Part shown: positions 16,199 to 64,000 of the stretch, piece after piece
How positions within the stretch are numbered: position 1 is the stretch's first letter
How the letters are laid out: the number at the start of each line of letters is the position of its first letter
DNA from: Paragyromitra xinjiangensis
Lineage: Eukaryota; Ascomycota; Pezizomycetes; Pezizales; Discinaceae
Direction of reading: 5' to 3'
NCBI GenBank assembly: GCA_038503065.1
Contig: JBCAMK010000004.1
Coordinates: 1-64,000 of the forward strand
DNA length: 64,000 bases
Notes under the pieces: model-generated
Database searches by the model: none
Told to the model about the DNA's origin: nothing
Seen by the model: only the letters and a program-made list of their open reading frames with translations
Made by a program: the position numbers and the translations under genes

Positions 16199-18040
16199 CT
16201 ATTCTTCACCATCTGCTACAAATTCCACTGCACTACTGTCATCATTTTCTACAGAGAGATCATCAAATTGCTCTACCAGTTCATTCACTGGCACCTCAGC
16301 CTCCCGCCTCCAATCCCCCACCTCAAGACCCTGAAACCCTTTGATATCTATCTCATGATCTGCACTTCCATCAATAGGAAGTGACAAACCAACTTTTCGG
16401 AATACACGTCTTATCAAGTCTACCTTCTCTATACAAAACTGATACCAAGCATCACCAACACAACAAGTTGTCACCACTCTCCGCTTGCCCACTGTCCACT
16501 TTTCAAATTCTTCCACACTCTCACATTCACGAATTGCTTCATCCATCAGCAAAAAAAAAAAGTGGCACCCAGTGCCTCTGAAGGAATGTGGCCTTCCAGA
16601 ATATCAGGATGCACTGGGTGCCAAAATGATACTGGGTGCCAAAAATATTGTTACCGGATTAGGCTGAATGATAACATACTAAAAGTGAAAAATTGCACCT
16701 GGTACTTCTGAAGGAATGTGGTCTTCCAGAAGATCGGGATGCACCTGAAGACCAAAACGCACTGGGTGACAATTAATTTTTTTGCTGATGTCTGTAAGAG
16801 ACTGAATATACTCCTTTAAAGGCTTATTGATAGAGACATCGAGAGGTTGAACTAGGCTGGTACAGCCTGCAGGAATCATGGTAGGCATGATTTGGTGGGC
16901 GTGTAGTTTATTTAAGACTGGCTCAGTCTTGTGGGAACCACACAAGTCCATCGCAAATAAGCTGGGTCGTCCTTGAAGAGCTGGGATCAAGTAAAGCTCA
17001 ATGTATTTGAGGAATAGAATGTCATTCATGTATGCAGTTTCGTTAAATTCAACAAGAACGCCAGGATGGTAGCTCTCATGCTCTCTCCCAAGTCGTTGCC
17101 CCGTTCCATGGAAGATAATCATAGGAGGTACACGATTATATCCATCTGCAAATATGCAAAGAACAAGAGTAGCTTGTCGTTTATCCCAGCCACTTTTTGT
17201 CTCTTTAACCCAAATAGTTTTCGCTCCAATGAGGTTATAGGTTCGTCCACTTAGGTATTCAAATGGAAGAGGAGTTTCATCAACGTTGCATATATTGCTT
17301 AAATCATAGCGACCAACAGCTCGGTTTAAAGCAATTTCGATTGCATTGAGAGGCTGCGAGTTCCGGCGGTTGAATCGAATCCAGCTGGTTAGGAGTTTCA
17401 AATATTCTGTGGGAACCATCTGTGCGGTTTTGGTAATCCTTCGAAGACTGACTCGGTGCCTGCGCAAAAACCCTCCAAACCAACCAGCAGAGAACCGAAA
17501 GATAGTAGTACAAACATTTGGATACATCTCCCGAAAAATTTGATCAGCATGGACTCTGAACCAGCCCTGGCGTATCGATTGTCCTGATTCACGGCGTTCT
17601 AAAAACAGATTGTATAGCTTGCTCTCAAGCTCGGGCCATTGACAGATTGTAACGGTTCGAAAATTCCTCATCAATGTCTTGCTACCTTGTGCCTCAATCT
17701 GCTTCTCCCTTCGTACCCAGTCGCTAATTGTGCGTTGAGGTACACCGAAAACATCTTCTGCCTCAATCTGAGAGGGAGCTCAATACTCCCCAGGTACACC
17801 CGTAGGAATTCGGTAGTGAGTGAGAAATACCAGAACTCGGATCCACTGTCGCTGACTCCATGATCGCTCTGGGTATGCTATCGGTTTGATGTCTTTAAGG
17901 GTTCGTTCTTTTATTGACTTGGGTTTAGGACCCCGCTTGCGTGCCCTTGGCTGACTTTGCTCATTCTCTATCACACTTCGCAAAATTCCTTTGGACTTTG
18001 TCTTTGGCATCTTGATCTTAGGTATCGGTTGTGTCTTCAC
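16199..18040 (-). pseudogene. Broken pogo/Fot-like DDE transposase
   Basis: The N-terminal part (from Met at 18040) is basic (RARKRGPKPKS) and reads to a TGA at 17780; the same frame then continues with a helix-turn-helix-like stretch (PQRTISDWVRREKQ) into a 331-codon block. That block has an HTH_Tnp_Tc5-like region (SAGWFGGFLRRH) and the catalytic triad motifs NVDETPLPFEY (D1), FAMDLCGSHKT (D2) and SLVQPLDVSINKPLKEY (D3). It stops at 16679 after a HIPSE motif. About 100 bp further on HIPSE recurs, and the frame 16552-16199 carries the usual C-terminal segment of this family (VGDAWYQF, FRKVGLSLPIDGS). So one stop codon, possibly a CGA-to-TGA change, and one local duplication break an otherwise near full-length transposase. 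Active protein is unlikely. Confidence 0.88.
16560..16770. repeat. Imperfect direct duplication inside the transposase gene
   Basis: A block of about 60 bp around a CTGAAGGAATGTGG core occurs at 16560-16625 and again at 16690-16760. It duplicates the part of the gene coding HPD(I/L)LE.HIPSE and introduces the premature end of the upstream block. The left copy is bounded by a perfect 13-bp inverted repeat, TGGCACCCAGTGC and GCACTGGGTGCCA. Confidence 0.75.
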
Positions 18041-31738: not shown

Positions 31739-32587
31739 TCATATCGTATCAAAACTAAATTTCAACCGCTTCCAGATCTCATCATCTACACTGCCCAGCT
31801 CCAACTCCAACTTCCGTTTCACCCTCTCCCCTCCAATATCCATAGAGTCCCGTGACACATCCATAGACTCTAGATCCCCATCACTGGCATCCTCCACATC
31901 CACAAGTCTCGCCTCTAACACGTCATCTTCCTCATCCCGCTCATACTCCTGCACCGGTCCACGCCAACACCAAGCCGACATCCACCGATTATCTTCCACG
32001 ATAGTCCTAGTATTGATGTACCGGCTCGACAGGCACTTAAAGGCAACCCTGTGATACAACACTACGAATACCTGCTCGCCAGGTGGCTTCGCCGGAATCC
32101 CTAACCCATGTCCCGTAGGTGTAACGTCGCTATTTAGAGGACAGCATGTCGTTCCCTGTATTTCCAAAGTGACGCCCTTGACTAGTGCATCCTGGACGGT
32201 GCGGAGCCCGACGATAAGGTACACTTCATCCTGGTTATCGAATGCATCTTCGAGGAACCGTCGGGTAGGCGGGCGAGAGCAGGCGCTGGTGAGCCACGCT
32301 GCGGGGTTCGTGAGGTTGTACGAAGTGGCTCGTGGGGCGGTCAGGGCTGCGGTCAGCGGGGTGCGGGGAACGGGGGTAAGAAGGGTGTTGGTGAGATGAG
32401 GGGGTAGCTTGGAGAATCTTAGGGTTTCTTGGAGGAGGTGGTGGTCGGTTTGGGTGGTCTCAGAAGAGGATGGGCGGGAGTCGAGAGGGTCGATGAACTG
32501 TTGGTGAGGGGTGGTGTTGAGGATGAGACGCCCGAGTTTGATGGAGCTTAGAGGGAGAGTATCTGCCAGCAAATGCGCCGTAGCCAT
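31739..32587 (-). CDS. Candidate fungal gasdermin-like protein (RCD-1/HET-Q1 type)
   Basis: Single exon, 282 aa from the first ATG (32587); the frame opens 21 bp earlier but only with GTG. I assign the fungal gasdermin-like group from its layout: an N-terminal LADTLPLSSIKLGRLIL strand-helix segment, a middle TSYNLTNPAAWL segment, a DEVYLIVGLRTVQDA strand, and a PPGEQVFVV..RVAFKCLSSR strand pair followed by a DNRW..W motif. A short acidic linker (EYERDEEDD) then leads to a C-terminal tail of about 50 residues. In HET-Q1 a comparable tail restrains pore formation until a protease removes it, and cleavage kills the cell by membrane permeabilisation. The divergent neighbour, 3 kb away, is a TPR-CHAT protease, a pairing expected for such a system. 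The family call rests on remembered sequence patterns and needs a profile or structure check. Confidence 0.66.
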   Translation of the reverse strand: MATAHLLADTLPLSSIKLGRLILNTTPHQQFIDPLDSRPSSSETTQTDHHLLQETLRFSKLPPHLTNTLLTPVPRTPLTAALTAPRATSYNLTNPAAWLTSACSRPPTRRFLEDAFDNQDEVYLIVGLRTVQDALVKGVTLEIQGTTCCPLNSDVTPTGHGLGIPAKPPGEQVFVVLYHRVAFKCLSSRYINTRTIVEDNRWMSAWCWRGPVQEYERDEEDDVLEARLVDVEDASDGDLESMDVSRDSMDIGGERVKRKLELELGSVDDEIWKRLKFSFDTI

Positions 32588-35567
32588 CGTTGAGAATTGA
32601 TAGAACACAAGACCGTTAAGCGATACGAGGTATTCGGACTTGAAACCAACTAACTAGTAATGTATGGAAGACAAGTACTGTTGAAAAAATCTAGAACGAA
32701 GAAAGATAGACGGTATCCTTCTTTCTGAATACTTCCTCGCTCGTCGTATTCAAAGGGGGATACAGAAAAATCTCCATTTCGTAAAATTTTAACGGTAGCG
32801 CTGCTCAAGAAATATGCTGGCAAATACACATCATGTTTTAGATGATCACGGAAGTGCATGGAGGAAGATCCTAGACACTTCAAAAACACTGTTGCCTAGA
32901 ACACATATCTGCATATCTACATATCTAGAATATTCGTAGGCAATTCTGTGGTATAGGAAGCCTTGCAAGGCTTTTGACACAAATGGCCCGAAGATATTCG
33001 ACAAGATGTGTACAGTCACTTCTGGGTCGCGACAAAACTCGCGCATTGACGAGTGAGGGTTACAACCATAGAGATTTCTAGATCCAAGCCCGATCCCTAT
33101 TCAAAGTGCAGCTTTGTAGGTTGCTTTTCGTCAAAGCACCAGTTAGTTTCGTCGTGACCGGCCCCAGGAGTGACTGTACAGTACTTCGTAAACAGCCTTG
33201 CTCAATTGTCAGAATATCGAGGCAATTGGCGGTGGTGGTTGCGATATTAGGTGGCTCCACTCATTATGTATTTACTGAAAAATGAATTATGCGACTAGAA
33301 GCAGCCGCCTCATCTGCAGTTCCCAAAGCTGGCCGTGTTTAGATCCAGTAGGTTGCGCGACAGCTGAGAGCCTTGTCAGGCCAGAAACCACTGGATTGCG
33401 ATCAGAAAACCTAAATACTGTGGGGTAAACCTTCCCATATCAGCGCCAAAGGTGTAACTGTCGCCCACCAGCCTCATTTAGCAACCTCGTCAGGCGCATG
33501 CCGGTATTCTCAATACGTATTGTGAATTCTCATTGAATCGTTATAAACTTACATAAGCTTTTTAACAGTTGTGGGGGCTGTAACCGACCCAAGGTCGCCC
33601 ATAGCAACCAGTCATGAACGAGCACTCGATCTCTATACTCCCAATTCGCGGATACACCCCTCTTCGTTGATAATCAATTAATTAGGGTAGCTGAGGGTTA
33701 TACTATTAACCTAGAGTATGCTAGGTATTATTTACGATTCTTCTCAGATCTTTTGGTACCTATGGTTGCAACAGCTTGCGTTTTGTGGTCGAGATGTGTA
33801 AAATCCTCGTGCTTAAGTTTACTTAGGTACGTAGGTATACTTTGGTTTGCGCCAAAAAAAAAATCTACAGAACCACATTTCCAAACTGTTGTCTACATTG
33901 CCTAGACCTGTGAGAATCTGTATAAATTATATTATTTAGAGTTGCTGTTAAATAGCATAGTATTGGCCTGCGATTCGATGTGCTTGGTGGGACTGTGCCG
34001 AGGCTGTGGCTCTTGCTTACAAGCCACACCACACCAGCCACACTGTGGAGGTGTGGCTTTGTATATCTCCTGTTTTATGGTGACAAGGGTTCCCAAAACT
34101 ATGATGCAGGGAGTAAGATTAGCTAGCCTGCTCTATATGAGGCTCAAAGAGTCGCCTTCGCATCTCGTTTATTGGTCGCAGAAACTTGGGGCTCAATTAC
34201 AACTAGTAAATTTACCTTTCAGGCTGATCTTGGCATTTATTTACCGTTTGAGCCCCAATTTGTCTTTGACCAATCCAAAATTAATTACGGTCACCCAGCC
34301 CCGTCCAGTACTCCTGAGATATTACGGTATGTTATTACAAAGGTGTTGAATCTACGTCCTGAAAACACCTTACGCCAAAGGTAGATAGTTCGAAGCCTTG
34401 CTGCTTGTACATGTTAGATATGTGTCGCCCGCTCGTTGCGCAGAGTCCGTAGCTGGACCTATGAATTCTAGAGGTTATGAGATGGTCTACTTATCCATTC
34501 GGTATCTGACGAGAACCCCGTCACCAAGCTTGGATGGTCAGTATAAAGGGCAGTGTTGGCATACTCCGAACCTATAGAATTATGATTTCGGAAAAATCAA
34601 CTATCTTCCCCTGTAAGCTAGGTATTGCTTTTGGCGAGGCGCATCGGGATAACAAGCTTCTTATTTGATATCGTGGTGGCCTTATGCCGAGTAGGTACTG
34701 TGTGGCTCAGAGATGCGGGACAGCTGGCAGAAATGTAAATAAACTGAGGCTCTGCGGGTGCGTTACTTGTACTCTACTCTAGCAGTATCTGGTGGTAGGT
34801 CTAAGCAAAGTTTTAGAAGGAATTACTTACTCTGCGGTTGGTCATTGTGCCTTGTATGCTACTACGACGCAACAAGGCGTTACGAGCCCCACGGCACAGC
34901 ACCCCCAAATCCACCATGTCTCCCACAGCTGAACCTTAATCACGCCGCTACGTGATGTTTTCTTTTTTGTTGAGTAGTGGGTGTTTTCATTGAGTGGTTC
35001 ATGGCATCTAGATCATGTTGCATCGTGGTACTTCAAAAACCGCAAGAACTTGTTTGATGCAACTATACATAAGGCTACACTTTGGATGCCACGACTGATC
35101 TGCTTGCTTCACAAGATCGCTTCGCCTTCCTCATAACGCGCAGAACCATCGCCTCGAACCGAAGTAGATACACATTATCTCGCTGGCAAACAGCTGATCA
35201 GGCAGGAACACCCGGCTGAATCTCTTCATTACGACTCCAAAGATCTGGTGTCTGAAGAACGGTCGCGTGTACTCGAAGACTGAAAAAACCTACACGTACC
35301 TAACCGCCAATATATATTCTCCCACCCTCCCGAAGCCGGCGGTCTCAGTAGGAACCCTTCGGACAGAACACGGCAGAAAATACTAGACACCCGAAAAATC
35401 GCAGCTGTGAATAAGAATGTAAGTCGACGACTCCAACAGGTGAGAGTGAATAATGAAAACTGATCTTTGAGTTATTACCGTAGGGAGGATCCGGTCAATC
35501 TTTCCGACAGGGGCGGCCAACAGCCGGTTAACCTTGACTTGCATGTGAGCTCGGAAAAAAAGGCACC
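32588..35567. other. 3-kb divergent intergenic region between the gasdermin-like and CHAT genes
   Basis: No gene is supported. The ORFs at 33942-34349 and elsewhere are short and lack motifs. Since both neighbours are transcribed away from it, the region must hold both promoters. It may also contain one or more 5' exons of the CHAT gene, whose long frame has no early ATG. Confidence 0.5.
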
Positions 35568-38500
35568 GTGGAGCTCGTAAATTCACTCATTGGAAGCGTC
35601 TGGGAAACGCATGACATTACCAGCCTTATCATTGCTATCGAACTTGTTGAGGAGCTGGTTGTTCACGACGAGCGTAACCTTAGAGTCTTGGGTTGGCTGT
35701 TGGATCTCCAAGAACTACTGGTCCTGAAGGGCATGGTGGAAGACCTTAAGCAGGCCGTCAAACGAACTGAGGAAGCGGCAGCAGCTCCTCAAGGTAGGAT
35801 CTTAGCTAAACCGAGTATCCAGCTGTCCATGAGATCTGAGGATCCGGAGAAGGTTATCAAAAATTTTGAGGCGGGGCTTGCAGCAACACCTCCCGAGGAC
35901 GGGGATCGAGTATGGTGGTTGGTTGGCCTGAGTATTCTGTTGTCCGGCAGATATGAAAAATTTGGGGCAGTAGAGGATCTTGAACAGGCTATCAAGCACT
36001 CAGAGGCAGCGCTTGTAGTGGGGCCTCTTGAAGACAGTCGTGCAAGACAATTGGGTGACCTCGGAGCTAGGCTTTCCCGCAGATATGAGAGGTTGAGGGT
36101 AGTGGGGGATCTTAAGCAAGCTATAAAGAACTTAGAAGAAGCACCTGTAGCGACACCTCCCGAACATAGCGATCGAGCACGGCGTATAGCCAATTGCAAC
36201 CTGGGTTCTTTCTTGCTCAAAAGATATGAGAGATTTGGGGTAGTGAAGGATCTTGAGCAAGCTATAAAGTACTCAGAAGCAGCACTTGCGGCAACACCTC
36301 CCGAGCACAACGATCGATCAATACTTTTGCCCAACCTGGGTTTATCTTCGATCAGAAGATATGCGAAGTTTGGGGCAGTGGAGGGCCTTGAGAAAGCTAT
36401 AGAGTACTCAAAAGCAGCACTTGCGGCAACACCTCCTGAGCACAACCGTCGATCAATGCTTTTGACCAATCTGGGTTCATCGTTGTCCGACAGATATGTG
36501 AGATTTGGGGCAGTGGAGGACCTTGAGAAAGCTATAAAGTACTCAGAAGAAGCACTTGCAGCAGCACCCCCTGAACACAAAGATCGAGCAGTGATTTTGA
36601 CTAACCTATGTTTATTGTTCTACAGATATGTGAGATTTGGGGCAGTGGAGGACCTTGAGCAAGCTATAAAGTACTCAGAAGCAGCACTTGCGGCAACACC
36701 TCCTGAGCACAACCGTCGATCAATGCTTTTGGCCAACCTGGGTTTATTGTTGTCTGGCAGATATGTGAGATTTGGGGCGGTGGAGGACCTTGAGCAAGCT
36801 ATAAAGTACTCAGAAGAAGCACTTGCAGCAACACCCCCTGAGCACATCGGTCGAGCAAGAGGATTGCATATCCTCAGCGGTTGCCTGGCCAACAGATATG
36901 AGAGGTTTGAGGCAGTGGGAGACCTTGAGCAAGCTATAAAGTACTCAGAAGCAGCACTTGCGGCTACCCCTTCTGAACACAACGATCGAGTGGGGCAGTT
37001 AAATGAATTAAGTAGCTATCTTATGATAAGATATAACAAATTTGGGGCAGTAGAGGACCTTGAGCAGAGTATCAAGCACTCAGAGGCAGCACTTGCGGCT
37101 ACCCCTTCTGAGCACAACGATCGAGTAAGGCGGTTAGATGACTTAAGTGTCAAGCTTTTGACAAGATATAACAGATTTGGGGCAGTAGAGGACCTTGAGC
37201 AGGGTATCAAGCACTCAGAGGCAGCACTAGTACTTGCAGCAACATCTCCTGAAACCGTCGCCTATCCTTTTGTACTGCGTACCTTAGCAGGTTCCCTAAT
37301 AGCAAGATACGAACGAACGAATTCTCTTCTGGAATTCTATCGCATCATCCATATTCTACATTTATATTTGCGTATTCGAACGCCGCCGCTTAGCTGGATT
37401 AACGTAGCTTGGAATGCTTCTATACTATTTGCTTCGAAGAAGATGTGGGAGGACTCTAGTTCCACCCTTGCAGATGCTGTCAAACTACTTCCACGAGTAA
37501 GCTCAAGGACGGTCGGGAGGAAGGACCAAGAATATCGGCTTTCTGGGCTCTTGTTGACTCGAATTGTCTCTACCTCTGTCTCTGTTGCTTTGCAGGCCGG
37601 AGAGGATGCATCCTACTGTCTTCGGTTGTTTGAACTGAGTCGAGGAGTCATTATGGGACTTGTGATTGATTGCAGGAGTGACCTCTCTGAGCTACAAGAG
37701 AAGCATCCAGCGATATTCGAGAAGTTTCACAGCCTTCGAGTTGAGATTGATTCGCCCCCAACTAGAATTAACCCAAATGCACTCTTGGCTATTCATGGGC
37801 CCACATACGAGCAGGTCCGCGATCGACGGCAACTGGTAGCTAATCAACTCGAAGAGACGTTAGTTTCCATTAGGGAGCTCCCCGGCTTCGAAGGGTTCCA
37901 GCTCCCACCCCATGCCCACTATCTCATGTCAATGGCAAGTGATGGTCCAATCGTAATTTTCAATAGCACCGAATTTCGGAGCGATGCTATCATTGTCACA
38001 AGTTCAAGCATCAAAGAGCTACGGCTCCGAAAGTTGATTTTCGAAGAAGCTGAGGAATGGATAGACGAGATGCGCAACCTCACTAGCGGCCCGCGATCAA
38101 CATACGGGGATCGAAATAGCAGAATGCTAAAAATGCTTCAGTGGCTGTGGGATGTAGCTGTGGAGCCCGTCTGTAAAGCATTGCAATTGGACCCGGTGGC
38201 TGATGATACAGACTTGCCCCGAGTTTGGTGGATTGGTGCAGGACCTCTAGCTACGGCACCTTTTCATGCTGCGGGGAACCCTAAATCGAAAAACAACACC
38301 ATGAGCCGAGCTATTTCTTCATATATCCCAACGATTAAGGCACTTTCATACGCACGTCAGAAGAACCTCGAGTTGCTCGGAAAAAAGGATTCCCGAATCC
38401 TTCTGGTTACCATGCCCACTACTCCCGGTAAACAGTGGAGCCCTCTCCCGGGGGTTGTAAAAGAAGCTAAGAATATTGCGGATCTTGCTGAGGGGAAAGC

Positions 38501-39023
38501 TCATACCACTCAACTAGAATGTCCAAGCGCAGCTCAAGTGCTTGCAGAACTTCCCTCACACGATGCCATTCACTTCGCCTGTCACGGTAAATCCGACCCC
38601 AAGAGTCCTTCGAATAGTGCCTTGCAACTCCAGCCAGAAAACGAATCAGGGGAACCAGATAGATTGACAGTCGAAGCAATATCGAACATGAAAATTCAAC
38701 GCGCGCAAATAGCATATCTCTCCGCTTGCTGCACCGCAGAGAACGCTTCGGAAGACTTGGCGGACGAGTCAATCTATATTGCCAGTGGATTTCAACTCGC
38801 GGGATTTAGTCATGTGCTTGCAACACAATGGGTATCAATGGATAAGGCATGCTTGCAAGTTTCAGGGGAGTTCTATCGTTTGCTATTCGATGGCCAACCT
38901 TGTGGAAGTAAGGGTGGCCATCGGAAAGTGAGTTCTTCGTTTCATTCCGCTGTGAAAAAGTTACGGGATGCGAATTGGAGGCAACCCGTCATGTGGGCAT
39001 CTTTCATTCATACAGGTGTTTGA
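35568..39023 (+). CDS. TPR-CHAT protein (caspase-like cysteine protease candidate)
   Basis: One open frame of 1151 codons. It opens with GTG and the first in-frame ATG is only at about 35733; sequence open to 35538 suggests an upstream exon, so the true start is uncertain. Residues about 128-579 hold ten TPR-like units of 45 aa with consensus RY.RFGAVEDLEQAIKYSEAAL, unusually alike. A helical linker follows (LRLFELSRGVIMGLVID), then a CHAT domain at about 850-1151 with WWIGAGPLATAPFHAAG, the catalytic His in HFACHG (H1006) and the catalytic Cys in YLSAC (C1054), ending in WASFIHTGV. CHAT domains are clan CD peptidases related to caspases; the TPR-CHAT layout is shared with bacterial Csx29. 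It probably is activated when the repeat domain senses a ligand. The divergent gasdermin-like gene is a plausible substrate. A damaged paralogue lies at 56.6-61.4 kb. Confidence 0.9.
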   Translation: MELVNSLIGSVWETHDITSLIIAIELVEELVVHDERNLRVLGWLLDLQELLVLKGMVEDLKQAVKRTEEAAAAPQGRILAKPSIQLSMRSEDPEKVIKNFEAGLAATPPEDGDRVWWLVGLSILLSGRYEKFGAVEDLEQAIKHSEAALVVGPLEDSRARQLGDLGARLSRRYERLRVVGDLKQAIKNLEEAPVATPPEHSDRARRIANCNLGSFLLKRYERFGVVKDLEQAIKYSEAALAATPPEHNDRSILLPNLGLSSIRRYAKFGAVEGLEKAIEYSKAALAATPPEHNRRSMLLTNLGSSLSDRYVRFGAVEDLEKAIKYSEEALAAAPPEHKDRAVILTNLCLLFYRYVRFGAVEDLEQAIKYSEAALAATPPEHNRRSMLLANLGLLLSGRYVRFGAVEDLEQAIKYSEEALAATPPEHIGRARGLHILSGCLANRYERFEAVGDLEQAIKYSEAALAATPSEHNDRVGQLNELSSYLMIRYNKFGAVEDLEQSIKHSEAALAATPSEHNDRVRRLDDLSVKLLTRYNRFGAVEDLEQGIKHSEAALVLAATSPETVAYPFVLRTLAGSLIARYERTNSLLEFYRIIHILHLYLRIRTPPLSWINVAWNASILFASKKMWEDSSSTLADAVKLLPRVSSRTVGRKDQEYRLSGLLLTRIVSTSVSVALQAGEDASYCLRLFELSRGVIMGLVIDCRSDLSELQEKHPAIFEKFHSLRVEIDSPPTRINPNALLAIHGPTYEQVRDRRQLVANQLEETLVSIRELPGFEGFQLPPHAHYLMSMASDGPIVIFNSTEFRSDAIIVTSSSIKELRLRKLIFEEAEEWIDEMRNLTSGPRSTYGDRNSRMLKMLQWLWDVAVEPVCKALQLDPVADDTDLPRVWWIGAGPLATAPFHAAGNPKSKNNTMSRAISSYIPTIKALSYARQKNLELLGKKDSRILLVTMPTTPGKQWSPLPGVVKEAKNIADLAEGKAHTTQLECPSAAQVLAELPSHDAIHFACHGKSDPKSPSNSALQLQPENESGEPDRLTVEAISNMKIQRAQIAYLSACCTAENASEDLADESIYIASGFQLAGFSHVLATQWVSMDKACLQVSGEFYRLLFDGQPCGSKGGHRKVSSSFHSAVKKLRDANWRQPVMWASFIHTGV
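35949..37305 (+). repeat. Coding tandem array of 135-bp TPR units
   Basis: Ten units. The marker GACCTTGAG or its variants starts at 36249, 36384, 36519, 36651, 36786, 36921, 37056 and 37191: steps of 135 bp, except one of 132 bp where a codon is lost. Units from about 36500 to 37230 share long identical stretches, while the first two are more diverged. Confidence 0.92.
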
Positions 39024-50232: not shown

Positions 50233-51804
50233 CTATTCAAAAGCCAAATAAGATGCACCAGCACCATAGCAGATCGTACCCTCCCTACAATTAACATTCC
50301 ACTTCATCCCCTCAGAGCTCACGTCACTCGCAAATGCTTCAAAATGAAGAGGGGCCTTATTGTCAAAGTGTATCCTGTTGACCCCTAGGAAAACCTTCGG
50401 AGCCCCACCGAATGTGCCCGGAGGGAAATTAACACTTTCACCATTGATCACCTCTGGTTGGTCATCATCTTTGTGATTCAGGGTGTCGACGAATCCCGAG
50501 TAAGTACTAGTCCTACCCGATCGCCACGCAATCCAAGAAGCGCCTGCGGAATGAATGACGGAATTGCTCCCGGCATCGATATGAATTGTGAAGCCCTTCT
50601 TGTCGATACCAGTTGCGTGCGCTTTGACCCGAATATGGTGGTCCTTATCAATATCTAGGTAGTTCAGCCAGATGACGACGTTTGGAGTGACATCAAATGG
50701 GTGGTCGAAATCGATACGCTTGGAGGCTAGCTTCTCCGGTTTGTCCCACGGCCGGATATCCTTAGTATTGAACGACCCGACCTGGAAATCGTGATCGTCT
50801 TCGGCGGACTTAAACCAGGTTGCGCTGCCGGAGTATAGGGTTGTGTCGGCCCAAGTGTCGACGTGTATAACAAAGTTGTCAGTCTTGACACGGCCAGCTG
50901 TCGTACTGATGCGGACATCCGCTCCGGTACCGATATCAAGAGCGTTAATTCCAACGGTGACACGTGGGGGCGCGGCGTATTCATGGGAAAATTGGATCTG
51001 TTGTTGATTGGTGGGAAGCATCGGATAAAATTCCCAGCGAGGGGTAGTGAAGATTCCAGCGTCATTACTTTGTGGTGGGTACATTTTCCTAATGACCTCT
51101 TTGTCACCAGTCGAAAGAACAAGACTCAACTCTACATGGAAACCGTCCGTAGTCCATTCCTTCGGGAAAGGGTAAACCATGATTGAATCTTTATCGAAAA
51201 TGGTTTGCTCGGCATTTTGGCGGTTGAATATGTTATGCCTCACCAACTTCTCGTCCCAACTAGTCTCCTGGATGTGATAATTGATCACATACTCTTCATT
51301 CCATTTAATATCTGCTGCTGGGCCCTGGTGCTCGTGGACGCAGCCGAGAGCATGTCCGAACTCGTGAAGCGTAGTCCTTTGGATTTTTTCTTCGCGAGCG
51401 TATTCGAGTCCGAGTTGCATAGTAGGTAATTTCTGATTGGTTATCCCGAGGCACTTACTTCCGAGTTCTGAGAAGGACCCGCTGGACACACTGGTGATGG
51501 CCACCCGGATCTCTGCATCCCCTTCATCGACGAAGGTAAACTTAATGTTGGCATATTTGGTCCAAATTAAAGCATACTGCTTGATCTTCTCCCTCAGTTC
51601 TTTTGTTCCGCCATAAAGTATACGAACGCGCAAATTACTGCCGTTCTGCCACATCAGACTCTTATCGATAGCAAGATGCAAGGGGCCCGAGCCAGAGATA
51701 GGCTCTGAAAGATTGCTAGGTGGTAGCGGTCTGTCATCAAACCGTGAAGGCGATGGCAGACAAATATCTGGCGTATCTTCGAGGCCTATAGCTAAGGAAG
51801 CCAT
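50233..51804 (-). CDS. Astacin-like (M12A) zinc metalloprotease with three H-type lectin domains
   Basis: Single exon, 523 aa. Residues about 40-245 form the peptidase: zinc motif HEFGHALGCVHEH (H147, H151, H157, with E148 as catalytic base) and a Met-turn SIMVYPF. The astacin signature continues past HEHQGP, where astacins usually have R in HExQR. Residues about 262-523 contain three repeats of the H-type lectin fold (PF09458, as in Helix pomatia agglutinin), each with a hydrophobic opening strand (IQFSHEY; RIDFDHPF; VNFPPGTF), a P.V.(V/W/L)G.N or similar strand, and an ending SGSATWF, AGASWIAW or AGASYLAF. No N-terminal signal peptide is visible (MASLAIGLEDTPDI), which is odd for this class and suggests unconventional export or an intracellular role. 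The lectins probably direct the protease to GalNAc/Gal glycans. The hydrophobic ORF overlapping the 3' end (50016-50297) is in another frame and I do not annotate it. Confidence 0.9.
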   Translation of the reverse strand: MASLAIGLEDTPDICLPSPSRFDDRPLPPSNLSEPISGSGPLHLAIDKSLMWQNGSNLRVRILYGGTKELREKIKQYALIWTKYANIKFTFVDEGDAEIRVAITSVSSGSFSELGSKCLGITNQKLPTMQLGLEYAREEKIQRTTLHEFGHALGCVHEHQGPAADIKWNEEYVINYHIQETSWDEKLVRHNIFNRQNAEQTIFDKDSIMVYPFPKEWTTDGFHVELSLVLSTGDKEVIRKMYPPQSNDAGIFTTPRWEFYPMLPTNQQQIQFSHEYAAPPRVTVGINALDIGTGADVRISTTAGRVKTDNFVIHVDTWADTTLYSGSATWFKSAEDDHDFQVGSFNTKDIRPWDKPEKLASKRIDFDHPFDVTPNVVIWLNYLDIDKDHHIRVKAHATGIDKKGFTIHIDAGSNSVIHSAGASWIAWRSGRTSTYSGFVDTLNHKDDDQPEVINGESVNFPPGTFGGAPKVFLGVNRIHFDNKAPLHFEAFASDVSSEGMKWNVNCREGTICYGAGASYLAFE

Positions 51805-54147
51805 GGAGATTTCTGTGTGGTTGTGCGGGTTTAGATCTGGATAATCGAAAGAAGCTTATGGAATAAGAAGGCTTGAGGTAGCGAGGAGTATGGATCGAAG
51901 TGAGGGAGCTCGTGGCCTTGGAGAATACAGATCAAAACGAGGGGACTTGTGGGAATATATATACATAGAGCCCACTCGCTAATCAAGAAAAGAGCGTTGT
52001 CTGAAGAGCTTCCTCCTATGGTTGGGGACACCTAGTGCCGGAGGGGATTTTGCCCAAGATTCCAAGGCCAATACCTCAACCACCACCACACCTTAAAATA
52101 ATTTTCTCTCTGTTAAATGCCTCTATTTCATCTGCTCTACAACATGACAGAGCCTGATTCTTTTTATCTTTTTTTTTCGTGGAGTTATTAAGCTTCAAAG
52201 ATGTGGCTTTTTGGTGGGAGACAGAATGAATGTCGCGTCTAAATAATGCCTATTTGGGCTATTTTATAGCCCAAATAGGCAATAGTTTGGCGTATTAATA
52301 AGCCCATACGGGATCTTGGCACAAATATTCAGGCTCTTGGCGGATGCGTAATGGATAAATTACCCAAAATAGTAAGGAAAAGTGCATTACTAATCATCGA
52401 GATGAATGTCGCACCCCTCCGGCACTAGGAGTCCCCAACCATACGACCGTAGGAACATAGCGCATGCAGGTCGCTTAGCTTGATCTAGAGGCCCTGCATG
52501 TTATCCGCAGGGTTTACTTTAGCGGAAAATCACAATGCTGCGCCTATACATACCTATCACGAAGGTACTATGGATTCCAGGTAAGGGTAGGAAAAAGTAA
52601 TATATCAGTATGGCGCTTCAGGCGGTACGCTTACGACGACGATAATAATTCTTTTTCGCTACGCACAACATATTCATGCAAGCAGTTGCTTCGAATTTTG
52701 GCTACTCGCCTAGTAAGGCAACTTTAAAGTATTTCAGCCCTTCAAGCGCATTTTCATTTTCAGCTGGCTTCGACTCCAGCCAGCCCCGAGCTCAGCTACT
52801 TCAGAGAACCTTAGCCAACGCGTTCAAGCCTCAAAGGGCCCCGGAACCGCCGAAAACATTGTACAATGCTTGTGCAACTAAGACTTCAGCTCTGTATGTC
52901 CGATCTTGAAGTGTTTTGTGGCTAACATTGTATGCAGCCAGATCCAAAAGCGACAACACCCGTTGTTGCGAAGTGGAGTTGGTACGCCACAAGTTATATT
53001 AGTGATCAACTGCACACCCAACTAAACTGAATCATGATGTCTTGAGGAACTTCCATAGGGCTGAGACAAAATTTAAACTATAGCACATGCGCTGTTCCTC
53101 ACCTTTTGTCCTTCGCTTAATTCGGAACAGAACACCATATCCGAAGTGTGAATATAATTTCCAATACTATTGAGAAAAGACCCACCCGTCGTGATGCACT
53201 ATTTACTAGGTGTTTTTAGCAGGAAAAAGTCCTGGATAGCCCCACGGTAAGAACACGCTCGAGGCCTGGAACTAGGACACTATAGGGAGGCGTAATCCAA
53301 CTGATACCCTCGGCAGTGATCATGACTATTCCTCTACTGTACACGCATACCTACACCTTAACCAACTATCCCGAGGGGACTTGCAGAGTCTAGTACCATA
53401 GTATTGAAGAACAGTTCCACCAATAGAAGTGCAATGCGGAGCCTCCCAAGAAATACACCAAAGGGCACGCCATATCACGAGATTCTTGCGTTCAAAGATG
53501 TGCGTTGACCTAAATTCGGCAACTCACCTAGTGCACTGACATTTAACAATTTTTGTACATTGGTAAGACAGAGGCGCTGACGTTTAGGGACGCACACACC
53601 AGAGTACTCCACGTTTTGTGGGTCAGCGTCCCGCATGCAACTCTGATTAGTCTACATTTAAGGCTGCACGCGCCACAACTGCTAGATCTGTGTGTAAACC
53701 CCACAAAAGTAACATCGGGCTTTCCGAATGTTGAAACCTGAATCACATCAGCTCAAGTTTTGTCCGATACCCCACCCAAACGGGATAACCACGGTAATAC
53801 CCGCTGCAATACCCAAAGCCTTTCGTTGGCAATGCTAAAGCCCAAGGGTCTTGTGGATTTTTACAGGCAATCCGTCAGTCTAGTCGCTGTGAGTACCAGC
53901 GGTAATAAATTATCGAGTTCACAGAAGGGGATTGATACCGATATTCAAATCTACGTGTAAGTGTAGTGCAATCTAGCTTTAACTAATGAGACAAGCGGAA
54001 ATTTAGCGACCCAATAGGGAGCGCGATTCTAGTTACGACTTGGTTGTATCTGCATTAGACAAAACGACGGGTGGACAGTGAGACATTCCATTACCCAAAT
54101 CGGTTTATGGGGTAGCTGAATCTTTGCCCATTCAGATACAACATCTT
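51805..54147. other. Intergenic region
   Basis: No supported gene. Short ORFs at 52676-52909 and 53553-53741 have no recognisable features. A small inverted repeat around a TATTTGGGCTATTTTATAGC centre (52250-52275) can form a hairpin. Confidence 0.5.
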
Positions 54148-56647: not shown

Positions 56648-59600
56648 ATGCCTGAGCCTGAGGGGTTAATAGCGAGTTTTCAAGATATGTTCTTGGCATT
56701 GGGCGATATGGAATGCCTGGACTCTGCCATCCGCCGAGCGAAGAAGTTGGTCCTATCATCGCCTCCCGGGGAACTACAGCGACGTCACCAGTCCCTCTTG
56801 GCTGGCTTGTTGGAGACCCGAAATAGTCTAATGGCAAAGGTAGATCCACTCCATGAGGCTTATGGGTAAGGTTTTCATCCATCTTCTGGGGAGATATTTA
56901 AGGATACTAAGTAGTTGATGGGGTAAAGTTGTGGCTCGCAGGAAACTGAGATTTGTACTGGCCCACAGAGAGAGATGCCAAACTGCCCCTCTGAACCATG
57001 CGAAGCCCCGCCGGAGTGGTCGGGAATGAAACAACTCGTTAATGATGAAAATATCTACATCGCGGGCGAGAATAATATGGATAGCGGGGTCACACGAAGT
57101 GGAGAGCTTATTGCTTTACCCTCTTCGAATGATGAATTGGAATACCAACCGACCGTGAGGGATGAACTAAGGGTAGGGAATGACCGATCCCTAAGAGCAG
57201 AACAACTCAAGCACCTCCGGATGTAAGCCCTCAATTCCACCCACAGGATAAAATACGAGGAAACTAACCTCAAAATGAGAAGGCAAAGGGAGTTTTTCCA
57301 AAGAGACACATTGATTGGCGACAGCGTACATTGTGGCCCGTCAATAAACCCTTTTGAATCCCGTGGACCTACAGAGGATCTACCGAAAACCGTAGAATCC
57401 TTACAGACTTTCCAGGATATGGCCAAGATACTGGATGAAATCAGCTGTCAGGGTAATGGGCAGGCTGGAGAGTCGGGCATTCAGCTAAGCCTGGATCATC
57501 TAAGGCTGTATATGGCGCGAAAGGATATTGACTATGTCAATAAGGCGATCGAACTGGCTAGTGATCTGGCCATTAGAAACAAGGGCATTCAACCGCTTTT
57601 AGGGTATATTTTGGAGATTCGAAACGCGAAATTGGCAGGGCTAGATTTCATCTGGTTGGCAAAAGAGTACGTACCTATTTCTATCACAGAACTCAAACCG
57701 ATGGAAGCTAATATTGAATAAAGTTACCATCCACGAACCGATGTAGGAGTAGACAACAGTCCACCGGGAGTGGCGTTGTGTCAAACCCTCGAACCTAGTA
57801 GAAGCAATGAAGAGATTGAAAAGCTCTTGGAGAATTCTCATGAGATATTCAAGGCGACGGGAGAAATTGGATATCTGGATCGTGCCATCGAAATGGCTGA
57901 AAAACTGGTTGATTCAGACTTGCAAAATAAGGAGATTGGGAATCTACATATCCCTCGGATCGATATTTCAGAGGGCATCAATCGGATGGGAGAAGCAGAG
58001 AACCTAGAAACGGTCGCCAAATCAACGGAAGAGACAATCACTGAAATACCCCAAAATAGTCATAATCGCGCACGACTCTTCAACAACCTGAGTGCCCTAT
58101 TTTGGAAAAGATACGAGCTACTGGAAGTTATGGAGGGCCTTAACCGCGCCATAAAGTATAGTGAGCAGGGAATCTCTATAATGCATCGCAACATTCCCCT
58201 TCGTGCAAAAGTGTCTAGCAATCTGAGTAAAATGTTTAAGGAAAAATTTAGGGTCTCGGGAGACCTTAAAGACCTTGATAAATCAATCACACTGGCTAAA
58301 GAATCAGTTACGGTAGCATTCTCTGAAGGTCCTGCTCAGGAAAGAAGTTTCAGCAATATAAGTAGTCCTTTTTACAAGGTATAGGCGTTTGGGAGACATG
58401 GATGACTTTGAGCAAGCCATCGAGTGGGCTTCGAAAGCAGTCGCCGCGACACCGGAAGAGGGTTTAGGCTTGACCCGAGTAGAAATGGATCAGGATCTTA
58501 GTGCCATGCTTTTCGCGAGGTATAACAGCTCTGGAAATGCGGAAGATCTTGAGATGGCTATCCGGAAAATCGAGGAAACAATTACAGCAATGCCTCACCA
58601 ACTGCATCAAGCAAGGATGTCTAGTAGACTAGGAAGGATGCTTCTGGCAAGGTATGATCGTTACGAAGTGCTTGAGAAGGGCATCAAGCTGGCCGAAGAG
58701 GCGGTTGCAGTAACTCTTACAAGCAATCTTATCAGAGCAGAAGTGGTTGAAAATCTAGGACTTCTCCTTCAGCGAAGGCATGATCTTTTTGGAGCTATGG
58801 AGGATCTTGAGCGGGCAATCAACTTGATTAGAGAGGAAATTGTTGCAACGTCTCCCCTCCGGCCTAATCAAGCAGGAATAGCTAGCATTCTGGGTGGAAT
58901 TCTTCTAGCAAGGTATGACCGCTTGGGGGATGTAGGAGATCTCGATGAAGCGATCAATTGGACTCAAAAGGCAACCACCATAACACCTCCTGGCGACCCT
59001 GCCCGAGCATGTATGTCCAATCGTATAAGTACTACGCTTCATTCTAGGTACAAGCGTCTGGGAAACGATGATGACCTCGAGAACGCTGTCCGCTGGGCGG
59101 AAGAAGCAGTCGTAACGACACCCTACAGCTCTCCTAACCGAGCAGGTGTCTCTCGAGATATGGCTGAAGTTTTTGAAACCAGATACGAACGGCTGGGAGC
59201 CCTCGAGGACCTGGAACAAGCAATAAGGTGCGCTCTAGAAGCTATTGCTGTGACACCTGCTCACGACTCTAAACGACCACGGCTCCTTAGCAGCCTATCC
59301 ACAAAGCTTTGGCTGAGGAGTAGACGCCTGGAAACCCACGAAAGCCTCGAGCAAGCAATCCTGTATGCTGAAGAAGCTGTTAGGGTAGTACCTTCTAACC
59401 ACTTTGATCGGCCCGTGATTCTTGGGAGACTAGGTACAGCGCTTATGGCACGGTATGACTTCTTGAGAATACCGGAGGACCTTGAGCGGGCGATCTGTTA
59501 TGCCGAAGAAGCGGTCACAAAACTACCATCGAATGTCTCTTGCGAAAAAGGAATCACCAAAGATCTTGGTGCGATGCTTTTAGCAAGATATGAGCGATTC

Positions 59601-61414
59601 GGAGACCCGAAGGATCTTAGACGAGCGATGGGGCATATAGGAGCTGCAGTGGCAGAAATGCCCTTGGATCACCCCGATAGAGCTAATTTGTTGATCGATC
59701 AGGCGGTAACTGTCGAGCACAGATACCGACAGACGGGTTCCAGTCGAGATTTTTGTCAAATTCTCCATATTCTTTACGGAGCTTGGTATTGCCAGATGTC
59801 ACCGCCAAATAGCCGGATTAAAGCAGCCCGCAAAGTTGCCAAACTACTTATCGCGAAAAGGAGATGGCAGGATGCATGCTCTATTTTGGAGAACGCCGTG
59901 AAGATGCTCCCGACGCTAAACTCAAGATCTTTGATGAGAGGCGATCAAGAGCATCTTTTGTCTGACTTTACTCAATTTGCAGCCGAGACTGTTTCTGTCG
60001 CTTTCCAGGCTGGAGAGGATGCCGCACACTGTCTTCGATTGCTGGAGCTTGGCCGAGGAGTGATAATGGGCTTAGTTATCGATCGCAGGAGTGACCTGTC
60101 AGAGTTGCGATGCATCTATCCAGACATTTCTGAAAAGTATCACCAACTTCGTACCCAGTTAGACTTTCCTTTAGTCCGAATAGGAGAGGGGGACTGTGGA
60201 TCCACCTATCAAAACGGGCGCCGCCGGCATGATCGAGCAGCTGGTGAACTGGAAGAATTGTTAGCCGTGATCTGGGAACTACCAAGTTTTGAAGGGTTTC
60301 AGCTACCACCACATTCCGACAAACTCATGGCAATGGCAATTGAAGGTCCAATCGCTGTTTTGAATAGTACCGAGCTCAGAAGTGATGCCATCATTGTTAC
60401 TCACTCTGGCATAAAATCACTAGCACTCCCCCGGCTAAGACACACAACCGTAAAAGAGCGGCTGGGTCAGATACCTAAACTTACTCGAGGCTCGTTTCGG
60501 ACACTTTCATCCAGGAATCGCAAGTTGGGGGAGCTTCTTTTATGGTTGTGGGATGTAGCGGTGGAGCCGATTTTGGGGGCATTGCAACTTGAGGCGGTTA
60601 TGGGTGATCTACCACGGATTTGGTGGATTGGTGTTGGACCACTAGCTATGGCCCCTTTTCACGCAGCTGGTGACCATACTCCTGGATCAACGCGTAATAC
60701 CATTAGTCGGGTCATCTCATCATATATTCCCACCATTAAGGCCCTTTCGTATGCACGCGAGAAGAAACTAGAATTACTAAAAAGATCGGAATCCCGACTT
60801 CTTTTGGTTGACATGCCCACCACTCCTTCTCACAAATCACTTCCGAATGTATTGCAGGAAGTCAAAGAGATCATTGACATCGTCAAGGGAAAAGCAGTTG
60901 TGGATCGACTAAACCACCCAAGCGCAGCTGAAGTCCTAACAAGACTTCCCTCTTGCCATGCGATCCACTTCGCTTGCCATGGCGTGTCGGACCCCCGGAA
61001 CCCCTCCAACAGCCATTTGCTTCTCTGTAAAGAAGGAGTGGTTGATAGGTTGTCAGTTGAAGCCATATCAACTACCAATATCAAACGCGCAGAGACAGCG
61101 TTTCTCTCAGCTTGCTCTACAGCGGAGAATTCTTCGGACAAGCTACCCGATGAGTCAATATATATCGCCAGCGGTTTTCAACTCGCAGGTTTCAGCCATG
61201 TTCTTGCAACACAGTGGATATCGACCGATATTGCTTGCTGAGAAGTTGCATGTGACTTTTACAGTTCGCTATTCAATGAGGATTTGGAAGACGGGGGGAT
61301 GATAGGGGCCATCGAAAGGTCAGCGCTGCATTGCATTACGCTGTTAAACGATTGCGAGACAAGAATTTTAGAAAACCCACCTTATGGGCGCCTTTCATCC
61401 ATACTGGGGCTTAA
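56648..61414 (+). pseudogene. Second TPR-CHAT gene, broken by a frameshift, a stop and a 5-bp duplication
   Basis: Paralogue of the gene at 35568-39023. N-terminal exons start at about 56648 (MPEPEGLIAS); one clear intron is 57667-57759 (GTACGT..CAG, frame kept). Ten diverged TPR-like units of about 45 aa follow, then the linker (LRLLELGRGVIMGLVID) and a CHAT domain that keeps HFACHG (near 60966) and FLSAC. Three lesions break it: a run of five T at 58369-58373, where four would keep the frame; a TGA at 61239-61241 where the paralogue reads on (AC-LQVSGEFY); and a tandem TGCAT-TGCAT at 61327-61336 that shifts the frame, after which the conserved end (WAPFIHTGA, stop 61412-61414) is still legible. 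The dyad lies before the TGA, so a protein lacking only the last 55 or so residues is conceivable if the first frameshift is a sequencing error or is spliced out. First exon borders are uncertain. Confidence 0.82.
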
Positions 61415-62397: not shown

Positions 62398-64000
62398 TCA
62401 TCTTCCAAAAATCCAACGCGCTCTAGATCTGGGTACCATAGCTCTATATGAAATATTGAAAGAGTTCCACCGTTTCATGCTGGATTCTTTCTCCTCGCTA
62501 AGAATCGTTTCCGGATGGTCTTTGCCGAATAATTTTTCCCGTCCATTCCGTACCCTTCTATGAAGAGTCAAAGCCTCAGCATATTTCCTCTGCTTCTCGA
62601 GTATACTGGCCTTGCCATGTATGGCTGTGAGCGTCAAAGGGTGGCCTGGGCCAACTGCTTTTTCCAGCCCTACTAATGCTTCTTGATAACGGTCAAGCGC
62701 TTCCGGATACCGTCTCTCTTTCTTGAGCACTTTCGCAATGCTGCTGATTGCCTCAAATGTCAAGGGATGCTCATCTCCTAAAGCACCCACCCGTCCATCT
62801 AGTACATTTTGATAGTGAATCAACGCATCCTTATACTTTCCTTTATTCACCAACAAGTTACCCATTCCATGATGGGCCAAGAGCGTCCAAGGGTGATTTT
62901 CGCCTAATTTCTCTCTCCATCCATCTAGTGCGTATTGGTACCGTTCTAAAGCCGCATCGAATTTCTTCTGATGCTCCAACACAGCACCAGTTCTGTACAC
63001 GACCAACAGGGTTGAAGGGTGCTCTTTACCTAGTTTCTGGCTCAACCCATCGTGAGCGCGTTTGTACAATGTCATAGCTTCATCGTATCGCGCGAGTTTA
63101 TCGAGTACGTTCGCCATCCCATGCACTGCCTCCAGCGTTGACGGGTGGTCTTTGCCGACCGCATTCTCTTGGCCTTGTTCTGCTTGCTGATAACACTTCA
63201 ATGCATCTTCGTACCGCCCCTGACTGCTTAGCACGCTTGCTATATCGCACATCGCCATCCACGTCATATTGTGATCCACACCCAGAGCATTTGACATTCC
63301 CTCCTGCACCTGCTTGTATATATCGAGTGCTTGGTCGTATTTCCCTTGATTTTCTAAGGAATAGGCGATGCCGAACTTCGATGAGAGGGTTGTAGCATGG
63401 TCCTTCCCCAATTCCCTCTCCTGTCCCTCGTCTGCTATTCTATACCACTTTAGGGCCTCTGCGTATTGGCCTTTCCTGTTCATCACTCTGCCGATGTCAT
63501 TTGCGGCCATGTACTCTCCACGAACACCCATCTGACGCTTTTGAAACCCATCATACACTTCCCGATACTCGCTGAGAGCCTTGTCGTATTGCCCTTGGGT
63601 ATCATGAATATCTGCCATGCCGTTGATCGTCATTAGGGTCCAAGGATGATCTCTCCCGAATATATCCTCGATCCCTCTCAACACCCGTTCATACAAACTC
63701 AGGGCCTCTTCATAGAGCCCTTGAGTGCCATAAAGACCTGCAATACTATGGGCAGTGTCAAGGGTTGAATAGTGGTTCTTGCCCAAGCTCTCCTCTTGTC
63801 CCTTTAATACTCGCTCATATTTTTGCTGTGCCTCCCTATACCTCCCCTGAGTTTCAAACACTAATGCTATGACATGTATTGTATCGAGTATTGAAGGGTC
63901 GTTTGCGTCCATGGTTTTGTCCGCAATTTTTTTCTCTTTCGCCGAGCGCACTTCCTCAAGTAAAGATAATGCTTCCGTGTAGTTGCCCAAATCCTTATGC
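62398..64000 (-). CDS. Kinesin-light-chain-type TPR array, C-terminal part of a larger protein (runs off the right edge)
   Basis: The minus-strand frame is open from the window edge to a stop at 62398. It encodes twelve tandem 42-aa TPR units of the TPR_10/TPR_12 kind, consensus GKYDEALxxYxxVLxGxExxLGKDHPSTLxxxxxxAxVLxxQ, then a short tail (SFNISYRAMVPRSR). The first in-frame start codon near the edge is only TTG, so the true N-terminus lies to the right, outside the window. In fungi such arrays are typically the sensor end of NLR-like proteins with an NB-ARC domain and a variable effector domain; stand-alone forms also exist. I cannot see the N-terminal part, so the NLR reading is an inference. 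Units here are clearly diverged from each other, unlike the 135-bp array of the intact CHAT gene. Confidence 0.88.
   Translation of the reverse strand, partial: HKDLGNYTEALSLLEEVRSAKEKKIADKTMDANDPSILDTIHVIALVFETQGRYREAQQKYERVLKGQEESLGKNHYSTLDTAHSIAGLYGTQGLYEEALSLYERVLRGIEDIFGRDHPWTLMTINGMADIHDTQGQYDKALSEYREVYDGFQKRQMGVRGEYMAANDIGRVMNRKGQYAEALKWYRIADEGQERELGKDHATTLSSKFGIAYSLENQGKYDQALDIYKQVQEGMSNALGVDHNMTWMAMCDIASVLSSQGRYEDALKCYQQAEQGQENAVGKDHPSTLEAVHGMANVLDKLARYDEAMTLYKRAHDGLSQKLGKEHPSTLLVVYRTGAVLEHQKKFDAALERYQYALDGWREKLGENHPWTLLAHHGMGNLLVNKGKYKDALIHYQNVLDGRVGALGDEHPLTFEAISSIAKVLKKERRYPEALDRYQEALVGLEKAVGPGHPLTLTAIHGKASILEKQRKYAEALTLHRRVRNGREKLFGKDHPETILSEEKESSMKRWNSFNISYRAMVPRSRARWIFGR

Follow-up and report, generated by a model that had tools for sequence, protein, structure and literature searches.

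The 64,000 nucleotides analysed here (positions 1 to 64,000 of JBCAMK010000004.1, hereafter the window) form the start of contig C4 in a 48.2-Mb genome of 22 contigs, and carry a fungal gasdermin-like gene placed head-to-head with a gene encoding a TPR-CHAT protease. A sequence-only reading of the window had claimed a single-exon gene of 282 amino acids (aa) and a 1096-aa TPR-CHAT open reading frame (ORF) in this arrangement, about 3 kb apart; both ORFs were recovered, with a gap of 3,145 bp, and a protease gene hence lies less than 10 kb (3.1 kb) from the gasdermin. The elements of the locus are as follows.

31739..32587, minus strand: fungal gasdermin-like gene, 282 aa in one open exon (from the ORF, the RCD-1-1 profile match, fold matches and paralogues)
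32312..32458, minus strand: predicted first membrane hairpin region, residues 44-92 (model strands 44-58 and 78-92)
32081..32206, minus strand: predicted second membrane hairpin region, residues 128-169 (model mostly of low confidence)
31742..31981, minus strand: C-terminal acidic segment and tail, residues 203-282 (from alignments and the model)
31757..31819, minus strand: KRK...KRLKF motif at the tail end (from the alignment; similar in P0002 and in the C18a paralogue, L011)
32588..35732, no strand: divergent intergenic region with three dispersed repeats (about 33011-33194, 34171-34342 and 34860-35071)
35733..39023, plus strand: TPR-CHAT protease gene with an ORF of 1096 aa, in a frame that is open from 35538 (from the ORF and Pfam)
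36081..37228, plus strand: TPR array of 45-aa (135-bp) units, about 8.5 copies (Tandem Repeats Finder, Pfam TPR)
38130..39017, plus strand: CHAT domain, PF12770, residues 800-1095, E 1.9e-36
38583..38585, plus strand: codon of His951, motif HFACHG kept
38727..38729, plus strand: codon of Cys999, motif LSACCT kept

The 282-aa protein shows the layout that had been proposed for it: a core resembling gasdermins, then an acidic stretch, then some 50 residues more. The predicted fold, a point on which that proposal could have failed, matches the N-terminal pore domain of gasdermins, and the fold alignments to the RCD-1 structures (PDB 8jyy, 8jyz) run at approximately 7–17% identity. RCD-1-1 was also the single, weak PDB match of a 48-row profile (E 0.029); no PDB match was obtained with the single sequence or with a 10-row profile, and Pfam gave nothing useful for this protein and no gasdermin match in any of the 10 alignment members. 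Paralogues within the genome reach E 2.1e-35. Both hairpin strand pairs occur in the structure model, the second loop with low confidence, and the pair 44-58/78-92 may correspond to the first gasdermin hairpin. By analogy with HET-Q1, residues 203-282 are a candidate inhibitory tail. This tail is long, with 80 aa beyond Trp202 versus a median of 49, and its model contains a strand at 223-229 followed by a predicted local distance difference test score below 50 over residues 235-282. The KRK...KRLKF motif at its end may resemble a two-part nuclear localisation signal. In P0010, the only typical member modelled, the chain closes instead with a short pair of predicted strands. The tail of the C12 gasdermin (L010) ends in a hydrophobic stretch that, judged by eye, resembles a transmembrane helix and differs from the others in the alignment.

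The CHAT domain of the partner scored 126.4 bits against a curated cut-off of 24. The claimed His-Cys dyad could be located in its sequence, both motifs being kept around His951 and Cys999, which we presume to be the catalytic residues from what is known of the family. The frame is open for 65 codons before the first ATG, with no further ATG among them, and the true N-terminus of the protein is uncertain because of this open upstream frame. A search with the TPR-CHAT protein returned no PDB sequence match at E 0.1, and its named relatives belong to Maublancomyces, Morchella, Tuber and Choiromyces, all of them pezizalean.

The two families are linked across the genome. Searches with five protein queries revealed 12 gasdermin places, and 19 CHAT places were counted with remnants included; only the best candidates were scored, so these counts are lower bounds. 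For the CHAT places, exon-wise matches were merged per place, C6:507165 and C19:19083 were left out as TPR-like only, and C17:659267-661072 was retained, although only its TPR and middle parts match. Nine of the 12 gasdermin places lie less than 10 kb from a CHAT place, at distances of 1.3 to 5.6 kb (8 of 12 if the CHAT remnant on C6 is omitted), so the expected tendency of the homologues to adjoin holds within this genome. Such linkage would arise by chance with a probability of 1.1e-16 over the whole genome; restricting all places of both families to the outermost 200 kb of the 22 contigs still yields only 4e-10. Six of the nine linked places, the window among them, are divergent, two are tandem, and one is a same-strand remnant. 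Over eight pairs, the distances of the paired genes correlate (r 0.68; 1142 of 40320 permutations). Pfam detected CHAT in all partners of the seven other pairs, some of which were tested as pieces cut at the locus ends, and TPR families at E 0.001 in five of the seven (not in C18a and C14); the NTPase domain of NOD-like receptors (NLRs) was found in none of these seven.

None of the 18 S8 protease matches listed lies less than 10 kb from any gasdermin place, including the CHAT-less places on C13, C18b and C22. Over fungi, by contrast, shares of 63% S8 and 19% CHAT are given in the accessible part of PMC10197012. The CHAT-less C18b gasdermin has an interferon-inducible GTPase domain (L071:990-2465; PF05049, E 1.1e-20) about 4 kb away, and the ORFs around the C13 gasdermin resemble housekeeping genes by eye. 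A 663-aa ORF there (L014; C13:498835-499545 and its frame) combines a divergent gasdermin-like N-terminus with some 400 further residues lacking a Pfam match, and of the CHAT and S8 matches listed none lies less than 10 kb from it.

The sister loci are at differing stages of decay. The C18a CHAT (L046) adjoins an intact gasdermin ORF but retains neither dyad motif (HFACLG, LSASGT), and this loss is unlikely to be a sequencing error because the public protein P0097 is approximately 100% identical to L046 over the dyad-less part. The C7 gasdermin is broken; stops interrupt the C22 gasdermin and also the C6 CHAT, of which a remnant is left. A second TPR-CHAT gene within the window itself (57827-61408, plus strand) has about 48% identity to the first and contains in-frame stops (TGA, TAA).

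A public counterpart of the window protease, P0043 (1077 aa, on a 4,657-base contig), differs from it in a mosaic manner. The two proteins are identical at 294 of 297 positions across CHAT and at 141 of 159 immediately before it, versus 208 of 409 across the TPR array. As a control, 13 of the 19 CHAT places, each represented by one sequence, were compared with the best 120 of 481 public proteins, and at least four of the 13 have a counterpart with CHAT identity above 90%: the window protein and the pairs C12/P0046, C18a/P0097 and C9/P0103. Unlike window/P0043, these three pairs are 99–100% identical over every aligned part; the other nine CHAT sequences have no counterpart above 90% among the 120 listed. 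The possibility that P0043 carries another array of this genome joined to it by error was ruled out, because its best match is the window's own array (45–61%), versus approximately 50% or less for the other arrays of this genome. The protease thus seems to exist with two widely divergent sensing halves and one unchanged cutting half. P0043 is a single homologue and a candidate allele, and its mosaic divergence is what one would expect if recognition alleles diverged and their effector stayed constant.

In a fungal NLR, the concave face of the TPR repeats is reported to be under positive selection (available portion of PMC4986451). We compared amino-acid with silent change among TPR units, counting how many of 5000 random sets were as high as the observed value; loci of one gene overlap in this test, and their values are not independent. 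The window array gave 568/5000, which is not significant. The counts were 32/5000 (L043) and 3/5000 (L060) for C5, 169/5000 (L044) and 56/5000 (L061) for C6, 2009/5000 (L047) and 1195/5000 (L054) for C16, 1268/5000 (L053) for C18c, and 1168/5000 (L055) and 1144/5000 (L066) for C7. A shift is present in the C5 and C6 arrays and absent in the window array. The A-helix ratio exceeds 1 only in C16 (2.00 and 1.30), without contrast between the parts. A public gasdermin, P0004, and a public TPR-CHAT protein, P0054, each lie on a contig of 15,671 bases; the equal size hints at a linked pair, but this candidate was set aside, since among thousands of comparisons such a match may arise by chance. The nearest relatives of P0004 in this genome are nearly tied (C18a 0.451, C5 0.444).

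Between the two genes, the three intergenic repeats are short and recur elsewhere, the first at no fewer than about 13 places, the second at about 4 or more and the third at more than 20 (best 40 of 108 candidates); their ends match elsewhere on both strands, resembling miniature inverted-repeat transposable elements. A 123-aa ORF at 33978-34349 is probably no real gene because it overlaps the second repeat. In tblastn searches with 48 gasdermin queries, no gasdermin relic was found in the window besides the gene at 31739-32587. An NLR candidate starts at the window end (62401-64000, minus strand) and continues into L074 to about position 66679 of contig C4; it has TPR by Pfam and, judged by eye from its motifs, presumably a HeLo-like N-terminus and an NB-ARC-like NTPase. 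Elsewhere in the window, a Tle1-like hydrolase domain (PF09994) with a weak AAA_16 match forms an NLR-like architecture (2245-3249, plus strand), an ORF resembles the Tc5/DDE_1 transposase (16682-17779, minus strand), and another combines three H-type lectin matches with a weak astacin match (50236-51855, minus strand).

We consider it probable that the locus encodes a gasdermin together with its dedicated activating protease, and that it behaves as a self/non-self recognition locus. The TPR array would act as the sensor, and binding of a trigger would switch on the attached CHAT cysteine protease. The active protease would then cut the adjacent gasdermin near its acidic segment and remove the C-terminal tail, whereupon the N-terminal part may oligomerise to form a pore in the membrane, leading to cell death. 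Recognition would reside in a sensor array that differs greatly between strains, with a protease and a gasdermin that hardly differ. What the sequences show is the gasdermin-like fold, the CHAT with its dyad motifs, the non-random linkage of the families in this genome and the mosaic divergence of one public homologue; pairing at the protein level, cleavage, pore formation, cell death and the recognition role are inferred. A more specific version, to which we give only tentative credit, is that of an active pezizalean allorecognition gene in which whole TPR arrays, about half identical, are swapped before an unchanged CHAT and gasdermin, so that the sensor reads strain identity and one common pore executes the response.

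Several features of the gasdermin weigh against a working pore-former. The putative second hairpin, between Gly127 and Gly170, spans 42 aa versus a median of 65 and is the shortest among 48 relatives (the next are 48, 48 and 49 aa), and 15 of 44 strongly conserved columns are altered, again the maximum of the 48, with the C16 paralogue just behind (14 of 46); positions 177, 179 and 180 have each lost their typical residue (Gln, Arg and Lys, respectively). The window gasdermin may be weakened, or else be a fast-evolving variant. It could accordingly be a member that is decaying or makes no pore, its frame intact but its shortened second hairpin no longer spanning the membrane; the pair would then be a relic, or the gasdermin would serve to decoy or inhibit other gasdermins, as the frequent decay of sister loci (the CHAT of C18a and C6, the gasdermin of C7 and C22) might lead one to expect. 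We regard this as unlikely: the partner CHAT retains its dyad motifs, and the hairpin of RCD-1-1 measures about 53 residues over the aligned stretch (counted by eye), little above 42. The public counterpart P0001 is moreover full-length and identical at 278 of 282 positions, with only four changes (residues 70, 79, 160 and 166), and function of the window gasdermin is mildly favoured because of this full length.

Those four changes all fall in or beside the hairpin loops, which would suit a gasdermin that acts without proteolysis, in the manner of RCD-1, when cell fusion brings it together with a different allele; the neighbouring CHAT protein would then have another target. RCD-1, the closest solved relative, is reportedly free of cleavage control (accessible part of PMC12881547). 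Four changes are few, however, the remark on their position was made post hoc, and hairpin loops are possibly just tolerant; with the linkage to CHAT at 9 of 12 places, this explanation appears improbable. The pairing could also lack any function if both families had expanded in fast-evolving subtelomeric regions and come to adjoin through shared birth and death. Seven of the 12 gasdermin places (C4, C12, C16, C6, C7, C14 and C22) lie less than about 125 kb from a contig end, where this could be told, and NLR-like and transposon genes do occur in the window. Yet the linkage withstands confinement of all places to the terminal regions, and a published pair of the same kind is reportedly functional (PMC12881547, in part), which leaves this account very improbable.

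What triggers fungal gasdermin-protease pathways is described in the accessible text of PMC12881547 as a major question that is still open. The genome described here holds eight gasdermin/CHAT pairs and one with a CHAT remnant, their partners broken or intact. With several pairs at hand, and one whose sensor is unlike that of a near-identical public protein, the question of the trigger therefore becomes testable by array swaps. In morels, two mapped incompatibility genes, neither of them in this pair, reportedly leave some barrages unexplained, and more genes are said to be involved (PMC8940278, in part). Among the ten papers listed of 179 in our literature search, none treats Morchella and gasdermin together, which is no proof of absence. 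If the fungus is a morel, the pair bears on morel vegetative incompatibility.

Protease genes reportedly also stand beside short-tailed gasdermins in bacterial systems (Johnson et al. 2022, cited in PMC10197012), although there the context is prokaryotic and anti-phage. In Podospora anserina, HET-Q1 is trimmed by a protease encoded at its own locus and thereby loses a C-terminal fragment of approximately 5 kDa (PMC12881547, accessible part); HET-Q2, however, is a subtilisin-like serine protease whereas the window protease is a CHAT protein, and het-Q1 and het-Q2 are alternative genes of one locus whereas the window carries both genes as neighbours. The Neurospora crassa protein RCD-1 (PDB 8jyy, 8jyz) shares the fold of the pore-forming part but is shorter (257 and 244 aa), and the same text reports that cleavage does not control it. 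The hetB locus of Aspergillus fumigatus is an idiomorphic incompatibility locus, one allele of which encodes a CHAT protein of 1,327 residues; its alternate allele has no predicted domain, and a gasdermin link there is unverified (PMC11138114, in part). According to the accessible parts of PMC12881547 and PMC10197012, protease genes are found clustered with some 80% or more of the gasdermin genes of fungi, and direct fusion of the protease domains to WD40, TPR or ANK repeats is frequent; one P. anserina gasdermin is activated by the CHAT protease, itself TPR-bearing, with which it forms a two-gene cluster (both citing Clavé et al. 2022). The novelty that the sequence-only reading had claimed for a TPR-CHAT/gasdermin pair thus falls away, and the window pair belongs to a known kind because these reviews already report such clusters. 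It shares with the P. anserina cluster, for which activation is reported (PMC12881547), the two-gene layout and the TPR-bearing CHAT, and differs from it, as far as that cluster is known by description, in a strongly drifted gasdermin, a longer tail and a seemingly polymorphic sensor array.
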